Assembly (NCBI RefSeq): GCF_019443405.1
Contig: NZ_CP080376.1
Location: 558,001 to 622,000, forward strand
Direction of reading: 5' to 3'
Origin: Brevundimonas sp. PAMC22021
GTDB lineage: Bacteria; Pseudomonadota; Alphaproteobacteria; Caulobacterales; Caulobacteraceae
DNA length: 64,000 nucleotides
How positions within the stretch are numbered: the stretch's first letter is position 1; every line of letters begins with the position of its first letter. Below are positions 20,483-26,061 of the stretch, in pieces. The notes under the pieces are model-generated. The model ran no database searches. It saw only the letters and a list, made by a program, of their open reading frames with translations, and was not told where the DNA came from. The position numbers and the translations under genes were made by a program.

Positions 20483-22075
20483 TCACGCGGCCTGGTTGGA
20501 GCCCTCCGGCGCGGTCCACCGCAGGCGCGGCGAGCGGGCCGCACGCGTCTCGTCGAGGCGACGCAGGGGCGCGTGGAAAGGCGCGCCCTTGAACCGCTCC
20601 ACGTCGCTGGGGCCGTCCTTGGTGTCCAGGGCCGCCTGGGCCAGCAGGCGCATGGCGTCGATGAACCGGTCCAGCTCCGCCTTGGATTCCGTCTCCGTCG
20701 GCTCGATCAGCATGGCGCCGTGCACGACCAGCGGAAAATACATGGTCATGGGGTGGAAGCCTTCGTCGATCATCGCCTTGGCGAAATCGAGCGTGGTGAC
20801 CTCGGTGCCCTTCAGCCACTCGTCGTCGAACAGGGCCTCGTGCATGCACGGCCCGTCGGGGAAGGCGGCGCTCATCAGGTCCGACAGCCGGGCCTTGATG
20901 TAGTTGGCGTTCAGCACCGCGTCCTCGGCGACCTGGCGCAGGCCGTCCGAGCCATGGCTCATCATGTAGGACAGGGCGCGCACATACATGCCCATCTGGC
21001 CCTGGAAGGCGCACAGACGGCCGAACGCCTGCGCGGCGTCGCCTTCCTCGCGTTCGATCAGCTGGTAGCCCTCGCCGTCCGACACGACCCAGGGCGCGGG
21101 CGCGAACGGCGCCAGGGCCTCGGACAGCACCACCGGCCCTGCGCCCGGACCGCCGCCGCCGTGCGGCGTCGAGAAGGTCTTGTGCAGGTTGATGTGCATG
21201 GCGTCGACGCCCAGGTCGCCAGGGCGCACCCGGCCGACGATGGCGTTGAAGTTGGCCCCGTCGCAGTAGAAGTAGGCGCCGGCCTTGTGCGTCAGCCGGC
21301 TGATCTCCAGGATGTCGCGCTCGAACAGGCCGCAGGTGTTCGGGTTGGTCACCATGATGGCGGCCACGTCCGGCCCCAGCTTGGAGGCAAGGTCGGCCAC
21401 ATCGACGCGGCCGTCCTCGGTCTGTGCGACCTCCACCACCGAATAGCCGACAAAGGCGGCCGTCGCCGGGTTGGTCCCGTGCGCAGAGGTGGGCACCAGC
21501 ACCTTGCGGCGCTGGGCGTGCTCGCCCTTGGCCTCATGCGCGGCGCGAATGGCCATCAGGCCGCACAGCTCGCCGTGCGCGCCGGCCTTGGGCGACAGGG
21601 CCACCGCGGGCATGCCGGTCAGGGTCTTCAGCCAGTGCGCCAGCTGGTCCATCAACTCCAGCGCGCCCTGCACCGTCGACTGGGGCTGCAGCGGGTGGAT
21701 GTCGGAGAAGCCGGGCAAGCGCGCCATCTTCTCGTTCAGGCGCGGGTTGTGCTTCATCGTGCACGAGCCCAGCGGATAGATGGCCAGGTCGATGGCGTGG
21801 TTCTTCTGGCTCAGGCGCACATAGTGGCGCATCGCCTCGGGCTCGCTGAGACCCGGCAGGCCGATCGGGTCGCGCCGGACGAGATCGCCCAAGTCGGACG
21901 CATCGGTCTTCGGCTCCGGCAGGTCGACGCCGGTCTTGCCCCAGCCCTCGCCCTCGAAGATCAGCTTTTCGTCCTGCAACAGGCCGCGCCCGCCCGTCAG
22001 GGTCGGGTGCTTGTAGTCGTGATCGACTACATTCGGCGTGGTCGGGCGGCCGACGGTGTTCATGGTGCTGGTCAT
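20483..22075 (-). CDS. gcvPB: glycine dehydrogenase (decarboxylating) subunit 2
   Basis: The C-terminal half of P-protein (530 aa), carrying the PLP site of the glycine cleavage system. The PLP lysine is in NLHKTFSTPHGGGGPG. Also visible: SCTMKHNPRLNEKMARLPGF, SAHGTNPATA and CDGANFNAIVG. It works with GcvPA, lipoyl GcvH and GcvT to release CO2 and ammonia from glycine. It starts at an ATG overlapping the stop of the inserted membrane-protein gene (ATGA), and is the last gene of the riboswitch-controlled operon. Confidence 0.96.
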   Translation of the reverse strand: MTSTMNTVGRPTTPNVVDHDYKHPTLTGGRGLLQDEKLIFEGEGWGKTGVDLPEPKTDASDLGDLVRRDPIGLPGLSEPEAMRHYVRLSQKNHAIDLAIYPLGSCTMKHNPRLNEKMARLPGFSDIHPLQPQSTVQGALELMDQLAHWLKTLTGMPAVALSPKAGAHGELCGLMAIRAAHEAKGEHAQRRKVLVPTSAHGTNPATAAFVGYSVVEVAQTEDGRVDVADLASKLGPDVAAIMVTNPNTCGLFERDILEISRLTHKAGAYFYCDGANFNAIVGRVRPGDLGVDAMHINLHKTFSTPHGGGGPGAGPVVLSEALAPFAPAPWVVSDGEGYQLIEREEGDAAQAFGRLCAFQGQMGMYVRALSYMMSHGSDGLRQVAEDAVLNANYIKARLSDLMSAAFPDGPCMHEALFDDEWLKGTEVTTLDFAKAMIDEGFHPMTMYFPLVVHGAMLIEPTETESKAELDRFIDAMRLLAQAALDTKDGPSDVERFKGAPFHAPLRRLDETRAARSPRLRWTAPEGSNQAA

Positions 22076-22599
22076 CGAGCGAAGTCTTTCTCGAACGGGA
22101 ATTCAATACCGAACAGTCGTTTGGCGATGGCATACTTTGGGTTCATGTGACGGCTTGTTGCCGACCAAAGCCACATTCCGATGGTCAAGAAGCTAGCAAG
22201 ACCGATGGCATCGAGCCCGGTAAATATCGCGACTGCAATGCGACCTTCGACGAAAGCCCAAACAGCAAGCGCGATATGGATCAGCATGCCGATCCATCCA
22301 GCATACAGAAAGCTGGCCGCAACAAGAGGCTTCGCAGGCGCGCGACTGGCGATCAGCCAAGCGATCGCAGAGAACGCAGTGGCGACCCCGTAAGCGACCC
22401 AAAAATTTTGATCGAACACCAGGGCCGTTACTACCAGCGGATAGGCAAAAATGCCGATTGGAAACTGCCAGACGGCTTCAACCTGAGCCTTCTGCCATCG
22501 CGACAGGTAGGTGTTGTTCAGCGAGTAAACGGAAGCCTCAGCGTGCGCTGATGCCTGCTTGTGGATTCGATCCCGCGTTTCAGTCAGATCATCAATCAT
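22072..22599 (-). CDS. unknown membrane protein inserted between gcvPA and gcvPB
   Basis: A 175-aa protein I do not recognise. The first 40 residues are polar and helical ([20 protein letters not shown]). Then come about four membrane helices ([82 protein letters not shown]) and a cytoplasmic tail with [21 protein letters not shown]. It overlaps gcvPA upstream and gcvPB downstream by ATGA, so all three should be translationally coupled. Its base composition is visibly lower in GC and richer in A/T codons than its neighbours, which suggests later acquisition. Transporter or regulatory function would be a guess. Confidence 0.8.
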
Positions 22600-23942
22600 T
22601 CCGCCAACACCTTCTCCAGCATCTTCGCCAGGATCTTGATGTCGGCGTCCAGCGTCGTCTCCGTCGCGGCCACCAGCAGCACGTCGTCCATGCCCCCCTC
22701 AGGGTTCAGGCGGCTGTAGGGGACGCCCGCCAAGATGCGGTGCTCGGCCAGCTGCTCCACCACCTCGGCGGCGTTCCTGGGCAGGCGGACGGCGAACTCG
22801 TTGAAGAAGCGCGGGGTCAGCACCTCGACGCCCGGAACGGCCGCCAGCGCATCGCACGTCGCCACCGCCTTTTCGTGATTCAGCAGGGCCAGCCTACGCA
22901 GGCCCGCCTCGCCCAACAGGCTCATGTGGATGGTGAAGGCCAGGGTGCAGAGGCCGGAGTTGGTGCAGATGTTCGATGTCGCCTTGTCGCGGCGGATATG
23001 CTGCTCGCGCGTCGACAGGGTCAGAACAAAGCCCCGCTCGCCGTCGGCGTCCACCGTCTCGCCGGTCAGGCGGCCGGGCATCTGGCGGATCAGCTTCTCG
23101 CGCGTGGCGAACAGGCCGACATAGGGGCCGCCGAAGTTCAGGGCGTTGCCGATCGACTGGCCCTCGGCCGCGACAATGTCGGCGCCCATCTCTCCCGGTG
23201 ACTTCAGCAGGCCCATCGACACGGCCTCGGTGACCACCACGATCAAGAGGGCGCCGGCGGCGTGGGCGGCTTCGGCGATCTTCGACACGTCCGTCGCCGT
23301 GCCGAAGACATTGGGGGTCTGGACGACGACGCAGGCGGTGTCCGGCCCGATGGCTTCGATCACGGCGGCCTCGGCGTCGATGGCGGGCTGGAGCGCCTGC
23401 GTCTCTACGCCCACGGCATGCACCACCGTCTCGGTCGCCTTGACGTAGTGCGGATGCACCCCGCCCGAGATCACCGCCTTGTTGCGGCGCGTCACCCGCG
23501 TCGCCATCAGTACGCCCTCGGCCATGGCGGTCGAGCCGTCATACAGCGAGGCGTTGGCCACCGGCATGCCGGTCAGGTTCGCGACCTGGGTCTGGAACTC
23601 GTACAGGTACTGCAGCGTGCCTTGCGCGATTTCCGGCTGATAGGGGGTGTAGCTGGTCAGGAACTCCGATCGCTGGATGATGTGATCCACCGTCGCCGGC
23701 ACATGGTGCTTGTAGGCGCCCCCGCCGCAGAAGAAGGGCGTGGTTCCCGCCGTCGCGTTCTTGCCCGCCATGGCCGACAGCGCCCGCTCGACCTCAAGCT
23801 CGCCCTGCACGCGCGGCAGGTCCACGGGGCCGTCCAGGCGCGCGGCCTCGGGCACGTCCACGAACAGGTCGTCGATCGACTGGGCCCCGATGGCGGACAG
23901 CATCGCCGTACGGTCGTCGGGCGTCAGGGGGAGGTAGCGCAT
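22596..23942 (-). CDS. gcvPA: glycine dehydrogenase (decarboxylating) subunit 1
   Basis: The N-terminal half of P-protein (448 aa), partner of GcvPB in a split glycine decarboxylase. Visible family features: [15 protein letters not shown] start, [37 protein letters not shown] region (ly starting [14 protein letters not shown]), [14 protein letters not shown] and [12 protein letters not shown]. The split P-protein form is common in alphaproteobacteria. Its stop overlaps the inserted membrane-protein gene. A palindromic repeat element lies immediately upstream, between it and gcvH. Confidence 0.95.
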
Positions 23943-23949
23943 GTTTCGA

Positions 23950-24074
23950 TCCGCTCATCCCCGCGAAGGCGGGGACCTAGTGCTTTGGGCGACGGATGTC
24001 GCCGACATAACGATGCCGCTCATCCAGTGCTCTTGCGAACGATCTGGGTCCCCGCCTTCGCGGGGATGAGCGGA
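23950..24074. repeat. inverted repeat element between gcvH and gcvPA
   Basis: Two arms of about 30 bases, the left with CTCATCCCCGCGAAGGCGGG (23955-23974) and its reverse complement near 24050-24069, enclose about 65 bases. Each arm also contains its own small hairpin (CCCCGCGAAGGCGGGG). It looks like a dispersed REP/MITE-like intergenic element and would form a long stem in the gcv transcript. Confidence 0.85.
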
Positions 24075-24086
24075 CGAGAGGGGCGC

Positions 24087-24452
24087 TCAGAGCGTCTTCA
24101 GGTAATCGTCGTAGGCCGCCTGATCCATCAGGGCGTCCAGCTGCGAGGCGTCCGACACCTTGATGCGGGCGAACCAGCCTTCGCCTTCCGGATCGGCGTT
24201 GACGGTCTCGGGCGCGGTCGAGAGGGCGTCGTTGGCCTCGACCACTTCGCCGGACACGGGGGCGTAGACGTCGGACGCCGCCTTGACGCTCTCGACCACG
24301 GCGAAGCTGTCCTTCGCCGATAGGGTCTTGCCGGTCTCGGGCACTTCGACGAACACCACGTCGCCCAGAGCATCGGCGGCGTGCTTGGAAATGCCGACGG
24401 TGGCGACCTCGCCGTCGAGGCGGACCCACTCGTGTTCCTTGGTGAACTTCAT
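24087..24452 (-). CDS. gcvH: glycine cleavage system H protein
   Basis: GcvH (121 aa) carries the lipoyl arm between P- and T-proteins. Lipoylated lysine is in [18 protein letters not shown], and the start [14 protein letters not shown] is classical. AAAGGAGA sits at the right distance before the ATG. A larger in-frame read-through from gcvT is excluded by this start. It is flanked on both sides by inverted-repeat elements, so the operon's intercistronic regions are unusually long and structured. Confidence 0.96.
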
Positions 24453-24586: not shown

Positions 24587-25711
24587 TTACGCCTTCGGTT
24601 TCCGGTAATAGCGTTGGGCCACGAACGGCATGGCGACGACCTCGGCGGCTGCGGGCTTGCCGCGCACGATGACCTTCAGCTCCGTGCCCAGCTCCGCCAG
24701 GCGGGCGGGGACATAGGCCATGGCGATGTTCCGGCCCAGGGTGGGGGAGGGGCCGCCGGAGGTGACCTTGCCGATGACCTGGCCATCCGCGTCGGCGACC
24801 TCGGCGCCTTCGCGCGCCGGGGCGCCTTCCTTGACGTGCAGGCCGACGCGGACGCGGGCGGGACCATCGGCGATGTCCCTGGCGACGCGTTCGGCGCCGT
24901 TGAAGTTTGCAGCCTCCCGCCGCGACTTGGACAGGGCGAAACCCAGGGCCGCCTCGACCGGGCTGGTGAAGGCGTCGATGTCGTGGCCGTGCAGCGGCAG
25001 CCCGGCCTCCATCCGCAGCGAATCGCGCGCGCCCAGGCCGATCGGCTTGACCCGCGCATCCTCCAGCAGCGTATTCCAGATGCGCCCGGCCTCTTCGGCT
25101 GGAACCGAGATTTCGTAGCCGTCCTCGCCGGTGTAGCCCGAGCGCGACACAAAGCAGTCGCAGCCGAACAGCATCAGCCGCGCGCATTCCATGAAGCCCA
25201 TCTCGGCCAGCACCGGCTCGTGAGCGGCCATGACCTCGGCGGCTTCCGGCCCCTGGATCGCCAGCAGCGCGCGGTTGTCGAGGCGCATCAGGAAGGCCGA
25301 GCCCTCCAGATTGTTCTTCAGGTATTCGAAGTCGGCTTCCTTGTTGCCGGCGTTGACCACGACGAACAGGCCGTCGTGGTCCGGGCGGCCGGCCATCAGG
25401 TCGTCCATGATGCCGCCGTCCTGGTTCAGCAGCAGCGAATACTTCTGCTTGCCGGTCTTCAGCGCCTGGTAGTCGCCTGGCACGAACCGCTCGAACTGCT
25501 CAAACGCGTCCTTGCCGGTGATGCGGCACTGGCCCATGTGCGAGACGTCGAACAGGCCGGCGTGTTCGCGCGTCCAGCGGTGCTCGGCCAGCACGCCCTC
25601 GTACTGGATGGGCATGTCATAGCCGCTGAAGGCCGCCATGCGGGCGCCGAGCGCCTTGTGCGCGGCATGCAGCGGCGTGGTCTTCAGGGCGTCGGCGGCC
25701 TGTTCAGCCAT
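24587..25711 (-). CDS. gcvT: glycine cleavage system T protein (aminomethyltransferase)
   Basis: GcvT (374 aa) transfers the methylene unit from the aminomethyl-lipoyl H protein to tetrahydrofolate. Seen: [36 protein letters not shown], the folate-site region [15 protein letters not shown] and [22 protein letters not shown]. First gene of the gcv operon, directly behind the tandem glycine riboswitch. Neighbouring gcvH follows after a repeat element. Confidence 0.96.
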
Positions 25712-25769: not shown

Positions 25770-25940
25770 CGCTGTCCTGAAGCCTGAGAGATTCCGACCG
25801 CTGGTGCGGCCTTGCTCCGTCGGCGCGCCCGAACTGGGCGACTTTCCAGCGTCCGTGTGCTTCGCGGTCCGTTTGCCTGAGCGTTTCCGGGGCGGTTGCG
25901 CCTTCGGCGTCGGGTCGGCGAACCGCCCGATCTCTCCCGC
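25770..25940 (-). promoter_or_regulatory. tandem glycine riboswitch upstream of gcvT
   Basis: On the minus strand two glycine aptamers lie in series. Aptamer I (about 25940 to 25862) has GCGGGAGAGA, CGCCGAAGGCGCAA and ACGCTCAGGCAAACGGACCG; aptamer II (about 25852 to 25770) has GACGCTGGAAAG, CGCCGACGGAGCAAGG and TCTCTCAGGCTTCAGGACAG. These are the conserved core segments of the family. The GGCAAACGGAC / GGCTTCAGGAC ends close each aptamer. It should turn on the gcv operon when glycine is abundant. The expression platform lies between 25769 and the gcvT start; I see no clear terminator there. The rest of the 350-base gap to the plus-strand esterase holds no gene. Confidence 0.95.
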
Positions 25941-26061
25941 GAGAGCGCGCGACCTTAGCGCCCGACTCTTGTTCGAAGTCAAGCGGAGCGGAACAAGGCC
26001 GCGCACCGGGGATTGCTTTCGGCACGGCTGTCACTCCCCCTATCCGATAGACGAGGAAACC

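Follow-up and report, generated by a model that had tools for sequence, protein, structure and literature searches.

An unnamed membrane-protein gene at a recurrent insertion site between gcvPA and gcvPB

The gcv operon and its additional gene

The window (a 64,000-nucleotide stretch of the Brevundimonas sp. PAMC22021 genome) contains a glycine cleavage operon on the reverse strand. Tandem glycine riboswitch aptamers (RF00504, gathering score 32), the 5' one at 25855..25949 (60.3 bits) and the 3' one at 25770..25851 (49.8 bits), lie directly upstream of gcvT on the same strand, and gcvT (24587..25711; PF01571 and PF08669) and gcvH (24087..24452; PF01597) precede gcvPA (22596..23942), encoding glycine dehydrogenase subunit 1 (448 aa; NF001696, 603 bits against a cut-off of 364). 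Subunit 2 (530 aa) is encoded by gcvPB at 20483..22075 (NF003346, 700 bits, cut-off 441); both models are NCBIfam equivalogs, and the two products form one enzyme. The junction between the two genes is filled exactly by a 175-codon open reading frame on the same strand (22072..22599; ATG start, TGA stop) for a 175-aa membrane protein of an unnamed family, called the guest below. Its start codon overlaps the gcvPA stop codon in the sequence ATGA (22596..22599), and its stop codon overlaps the gcvPB start codon in a second ATGA (22072..22075): the arrangement described in an earlier sequence-only reading, and at both ends the position expected of a coupled gene pair. Given that position, the guest may share the operon's riboswitch-controlled transcript and be translated through coupling to its neighbors.

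The low GC remarked on in the same reading is also evident: 0.54 in total and 0.60 at third codon positions (GC3), compared with 0.69 and 0.94 for gcvPB and 0.69 and 0.93 for gcvPA. The guest gene is compositionally foreign. Between gcvPA and gcvH, two palindromic repeat units of the ccccgcgaaggcgggg type in inverted orientation are visible by eye (23949-24080); this type of unit also makes up the arms of a repeat insert at the gcvPA-gcvPB junction of another genome (G047).

An AlphaFold2 model of the guest protein, with a mean pLDDT of 92.2, consists entirely of helices, has polar tails at both termini and in our reading contains four predicted membrane helices; the protein most likely resides in the inner membrane, with four hydrophobic helices and both tails cytoplasmic. 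The tails are conserved in a 27-row alignment of the family, so the frame is more than a chance ORF, a possibility rejected on the grounds of the conserved family and the confident structural model together. A database search, which the sequence-only reading had proposed, found relatives of the family and gave it no name in Pfam or NCBIfam, nor any link to glycine or ammonia in searches of these two collections. DUF2919 (PF11143) is weakly similar, over guest residues 64-147 only (E 0.084; 13.7 bits, under the cut-off of 27.2), and an EccD-like match was rejected as being below cut-off or confined to one of the 27 family members. The protein had no match among PADLOC models up to E 1, in phage or plasmid collections (E 0.01) or in viral contigs; PHROG gave weak matches only (best 21.6 bits), and a viral fold search nothing at E up to 0.001. 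That it is accessory stress- or defense-type cargo rather than a transporter is a weakly held and rather doubtful guess.

The guest family is rare and patchy. The gene is present in 1 of 101 relatives and in 2 of 131 genomes of the genus; a sample of 398 genomes from the order, which may or may not include the genome of the second genus copy (G141), yielded the window genome and a single further match that is weak and partial (48 positions, E 0.0018), and in a class sample of 385 the gene is found only in the window genome itself. A collection of 5.8 billion proteins holds at least 97 homologues; those of named origin come from Desulfobulbaceae, Flavobacteriales, Ca. Yanofskybacteria and a cyanobacterial MAG. 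In the cyanobacterial MAG (L006, 3409-4338) the membrane domain of the family is fused behind TPR repeats, with another unnamed gene directly after it; in Ca. Yanofskybacteria (L007, 7808-8480) the homologue begins just downstream of a tRNA-Pro gene, and tRNA genes are classic insertion points.

The second genus copy, which shares 46% identity over the matched stretch, has an amidohydrolase gene on one side and obgE on the other. A genome whose amidohydrolase is 98% identical to that of G141 (G059) has no gene at the corresponding site, suggesting that G141 acquired this single gene recently; the gcvPA-gcvPB junction of G141 itself (L055) is tight. Outside the window genome, the guest is unlinked to gcv in the genomes whose context can be read, and the conserved association with gcv across genomes expected of a glycine cleavage accessory was not found. 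This is the scattered distribution that the sequence-only reading had named as an argument against a functional role, as far as context is readable, which in nearly all of the metagenomic cases it is not.

Recurrent single-gene insertion at the gcvPA-gcvPB junction

Of the 248 genomes of the order in which the junction is readable, 51 carry an insert between gcvPA and gcvPB: 42 of the inserts are genes, and nine are short repeat-like stretches. Within the genus, where inspection of the junctions had been suggested from the window alone, 12 of the 120 readable among 131 carry an insert (a gene in eight, a repeat-like stretch in four) and the other 108 are tight, the remainder being unreadable because of contig ends, fragmentation or lack of a match (G005, G006, G023, G030, G042, G057, G058, G101, G123, G133, G154). 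Family f2, which belongs to the same order, has 75 readable junctions out of 81 (excepting G453, G461, G862, G863, G866 and G867), 27 with a gene and three with a repeat-like insert. In the order sample, there is one repeat-like insert among the 16 readable of 17 in f3 (G203 being unreadable), gene inserts in 3 of 14 in f4, and four genes and one repeat-like insert among 15 junctions in f5; f1, the family of the window itself, has none in eight genomes from its other genera. In the rest of the class an insert is present at only one of 43 readable junctions, and it is uncoupled (Fisher p 0.002 relative to the order, with class-sample gaps taken by eye from coordinates). Many tight junctions were called from match coordinates rather than from sequence; in f2, 24 of 45 tight ones were read as sequence. 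Shared descent inflates the insert counts, so that the 42 guests represent fewer than 42 insertions, and the 17 families into which they fall (all-against-all BLASTP, E 1e-3) are a lower bound.

The window guest is the sole copy of its gene among the 120 readable junctions of the genus, and none of the other gcvPA-gcvPB inserts clusters with it in the all-against-all comparison. In a tree of gcvPA, gcvPB and gcvT from 61 genus genomes, the 12 inserts are scattered; those of G000, G009, G017, G026, G031 and G049 each have a sister genome or clade with tight junctions only, and G120, sister to the window genome, has TGATG at its junction. These data show that single genes have inserted repeatedly between gcvPA and gcvPB in this order, and the suggestion that the window's gene had been fitted into the operon with its overlaps kept holds up as one instance of this wider pattern.

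The guests named by Pfam include an alpha/beta hydrolase, DUF6968, TIR, DUF2513, a member of the PD-(D/E)XK nuclease superfamily and surface-adhesin protein E. In overall GC, 39 of 42 guests lie below the gcvPA stretch next to them (G387, G434 and G179 are level with it), and GC3 is lower than in gcvPA in 35, six of the seven exceptions belonging to a single 103-aa family of f2. Two families recur in separate branches of the genus: an adhesin-like family (G017 and G109, 52% identical in protein) and one of 147-150 aa (G009 and G031, 41% identical). The 103-aa family, which is unnamed, occupies the junction in ten genomes of one f2 genus, g8 (L141, L143, L146, L150-L152, L154, L157, L159 and L170). 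Its dN/dS is 0.02-0.08 in five close pairs and 0.26 and 0.31 in two more distant ones. Purifying selection is thus strong in the close pairs, and this guest is a working gene maintained by selection. A PADLOC scan of four other guests produced weak matches for two (TIR and PDC-S26 models). This weak phage-defense resemblance, of PD-(D/E)XK to PDC-S26 and of TIR to SAVED-TIR, concerns loci L056 and L131 (G049) and L149 (G465).

Control junctions behave differently. Of 60 genus windows, 11 have more than 100 nt between gcvPA and gcvPB, as compared with 0 of 51 for atpI-atpB (Fisher p 8e-4) and 0 of 53 for atpF'-atpF (p 7e-4). In f2, pmbA-cysQ, a pair with an ATGA overlap in the window, has no insert of any kind in 67 junctions (gaps taken by eye from coordinates) versus 30 of 75 for gcvPA-gcvPB (p 2.7e-10). 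Within the gcv operon, gcvH-gcvPA gaps of 428-626 nt containing ORFs occur in six of the 60 genus windows, with two more gaps of 233 and 244 nt, and gcvT-gcvH gaps reach 171 nt. None of the six gcvH-gcvPA ORFs overlaps its neighbors, three ending 0, 1 and 7 nt before gcvPA. By our reading of the translations, three of these ORFs are OsmC-like (L116, L128, L133) and one is DoxX-like. Given these guests, the gcvPA-gcvPB excess may stem in part from an operon that tolerates insertion in general. Some such permissiveness is evident, and it is the overlapping fit that distinguishes the gcvPA-gcvPB inserts.

The scpA-scpB junction likewise separates subunits of one complex. It has a repeat-like insert of about 150-190 nt in 8 of 22 genus windows (L089, L090, L102, L108, L111, L113, L125, L137), and all eight are open from the scpA stop (GTGA in seven, TTGA in one) to just past the scpB start. 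In f2, the largest separation of aligned parts seen by inspection at scpA-scpB was about 274 nt, smaller than any gene guest. Repeat-like inserts also occur at nagZ-scpA (1/16) and at the junction before nagZ (1/16).

Frames and overlaps of the inserts

A strict script, following one frame from the gcvPA stop (with the gcvPB starts of G230 and G475 set by hand), found that 45 of the 51 inserts form a single frame from gcvPA stop to gcvPB start: 36 of 42 gene guests and all nine repeat-like inserts. The gene guests that fail are G387, G296, G291, G243, G187 and G096, yet three of these (G387, G296 and G243) end in ATGA with gcvPB. Taken separately, 40 of the 42 gene guests begin between -4 and +2 nt from the gcvPA stop (the exceptions are G296 and G187), and 39 have their stop no more than 4 nt from the gcvPB start (ATGA in 31). 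Of the 42, 27 have a Shine-Dalgarno-like motif (GGAG, GAGG or AGGA) before the gcvPB start; the background for such motifs inside guests is 0.11.

Gap length is 1 modulo 3 in 35 of the 42 gene guests and in all nine repeat-like inserts; the latter has a chance probability of about 5e-5 if the inserts are independent, which those of related genomes are not. The frame-0 alternative is closed in eight of the nine. The repeat-like label of these nine, and of the eight scpA-scpB inserts, was at first our own reading. In seven of the nine (G015, G047, G102, G149, G367, G286 and G475) the inverted arms were unmatched by 200 shuffles, and in G199 and G183 they are weaker (1 and 4 of 200 shuffles, respectively); with the exception of G475, the seven also recur elsewhere among the fetched loci. 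Restricted to these seven firm cases, the chance of the 1-modulo-3 rule is about 5e-4.

Overlap is not obligatory for gcvPB. Of 93 genus junctions read, 54 are at +7 to +60 nt, 12 at 0 to +6, 12 at -1 and four at -4, with inserts in 11; the gaps of +7 to +60 nt leave enough space for a separate ribosome-binding site, which can replace overlap, so gcvPB can live without it. Of the f2 tight junctions read as sequence, 21 of 24 overlap by -1 or -4, a share that would fit the heavier guest load there.

Explanations for the inserts

The window guest is probably a horizontally acquired single gene, not a part of the glycine cleavage system, at a junction where selection for coupling would keep those inserts that bridge it. 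Transcription would proceed as a gcvT-gcvH-gcvPA-guest-gcvPB unit under the glycine riboswitch; by termination-reinitiation, ribosomes finishing gcvPA would restart at the guest ATG, and those finishing the guest would restart on gcvPB. Such a hand-over would be favored because the two P-protein subunits, GcvPA and GcvPB, make up a single heteromeric enzyme, and, judging from the pattern of survivors, an insert may survive best as one open frame from gcvPA stop to gcvPB start. The guest would obtain expression without a promoter or ribosome-binding site of its own. The frame filter would work alike on true genes and on short repeat-like stretches, and the repeats are the strongest part of the case for coupling because they have no evident protein function to protect. 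Candidate routes of arrival are illegitimate recombination and homologous exchange across the conserved gcv flanks.

Another possibility, and the one raised by the sequence-only reading, is that the membrane protein was recruited as a partner of glycine cleavage, for example as a glycine or ammonia channel or a membrane anchor for the P-protein. Its location behind a glycine riboswitch and its overlap with both P subunits are what such a partner might have, but relatives hold unrelated proteins at the same spot (17 families in all), the window's junction alone among those readable in the genus has this gene, the second genus copy lies away from gcv, and the family searches gave no match connected with glycine or ammonia. 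A partner role was rejected because of the unrelated guests sharing the site and the unlinked second copy, and is in our judgment very unlikely. The concentration of inserts at a single junction (51 of 248), together with the recurrence of the same gene families there in separate branches, might instead point to a dedicated recombination system, as for integrons at attI, or to guests being swapped through the conserved gcvPA and gcvPB flanks. Against this, the insert is coding throughout, with no non-coding element of attC size, and where one guest family occurs in two branches of the genus, protein identity is just 41 and 52%, so that a recent swap is not seen in those two pairs; we regard this explanation as unlikely.

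A third reading, neutral hitch-hiking, would have the guests be chance arrivals, with ATGA reflecting nothing more than the commonest distance between bacterial genes and no selection for coupling. Huber et al. (2023, PMC10666635) give -4 as the most frequent spacing of same-strand prokaryotic gene pairs, with -1 also among the most frequent, so ATGA by itself is no rarity; the unusual feature is the frequency with which unrelated inserts at a single junction overlap the genes on both sides. Neutrality is at odds with the bridging of non-gene-like repeats as well as genes (9/9 at gcvPA-gcvPB and 8/8 at scpA-scpB) and with the purifying selection on the 103-aa family, one of the older guest families, whose dN/dS means that the guests are not all neutral. 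We consider it quite improbable.

Coupling selection on acquired guests, the preferred explanation, shares features with several known systems. Integron cassettes are promoterless single genes, diverse and mostly of unknown function, that share one site, and in this they resemble the guests of the gcv junction. The junction differs in having neither an attC-sized element nor an array, and in being located within a housekeeping operon; no attC was found downstream of the guest, and there is no room for one beside it, because the ORF spans the insert with 4-nt overlaps at both ends. An integron cassette was therefore rejected for lack of a non-coding recombination site beside the guest. Rickettsia palindromic elements, repeats read in frame inside genes, are likewise non-gene repeats tolerated when the frame stays open, but the repeats here are between genes and have a bridging frame of their own with overlapped start and stop. 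Foreign or orphan genes inserted into existing operons gain expression from the resident operon; here, in contrast, insertion is recurrent, with 17 sampled families at one junction, mostly overlapped at both ends.

The closest parallel is with termination-reinitiation gene pairs (Huber et al., 2019, PMC6728339; 2023, PMC10666635), which, in the parts of these papers available, share ATGA or TGATG overlaps, a need for short distances and enrichment in heteromers: in reporters in Haloferax and E. coli, reinitiation drops steeply with distance, and heteromeric complexes supply more than their share of the short-overlap pairs (PMC10666635). As far as the accessible text goes, those pairs are native, whereas here foreign genes lie between two subunits, with overlaps at both new ends; the terms insertion, inserted and horizontal are absent from the main text of the 2023 paper. 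Searches of open-licence papers, judged by title and the start of the abstract, brought up no description of this junction or of coupled junctions as insertion hot spots; one may be published elsewhere.

The main result is the site, rather than the membrane protein. For annotation, the warning is that a gene within a conserved operon may have a different function; the window guest family, DUF2513, DUF6968 and the 103-aa family are candidate families of mobile cargo. A broader idea, held tentatively as possible but short of probable, is that the junction is an integrase-free landing pad at which guests are gained, lost and replaced singly while coupling proofreads the frame, and that junctions within heteromers generally shelter new small genes, as scpA-scpB already illustrates in the case of repeats. 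Guests would then be expressed solely via termination-reinitiation in the host operon, and coupling of the P subunits would make a coupled gene of any surviving insert, palindromic repeats included. If selection for coupling is the right explanation, the expression of promoterless foreign genes would be connected with the persistence of 4-nt overlaps in operons, and the junction would amount to a natural experiment with dozens of unrelated inserts, whose main common property is a potential hand-over of ribosomes between subunits. On the broader idea, bridging frames at the junctions between heteromer subunits would be a general birthplace and shelter for foreign and new small genes.
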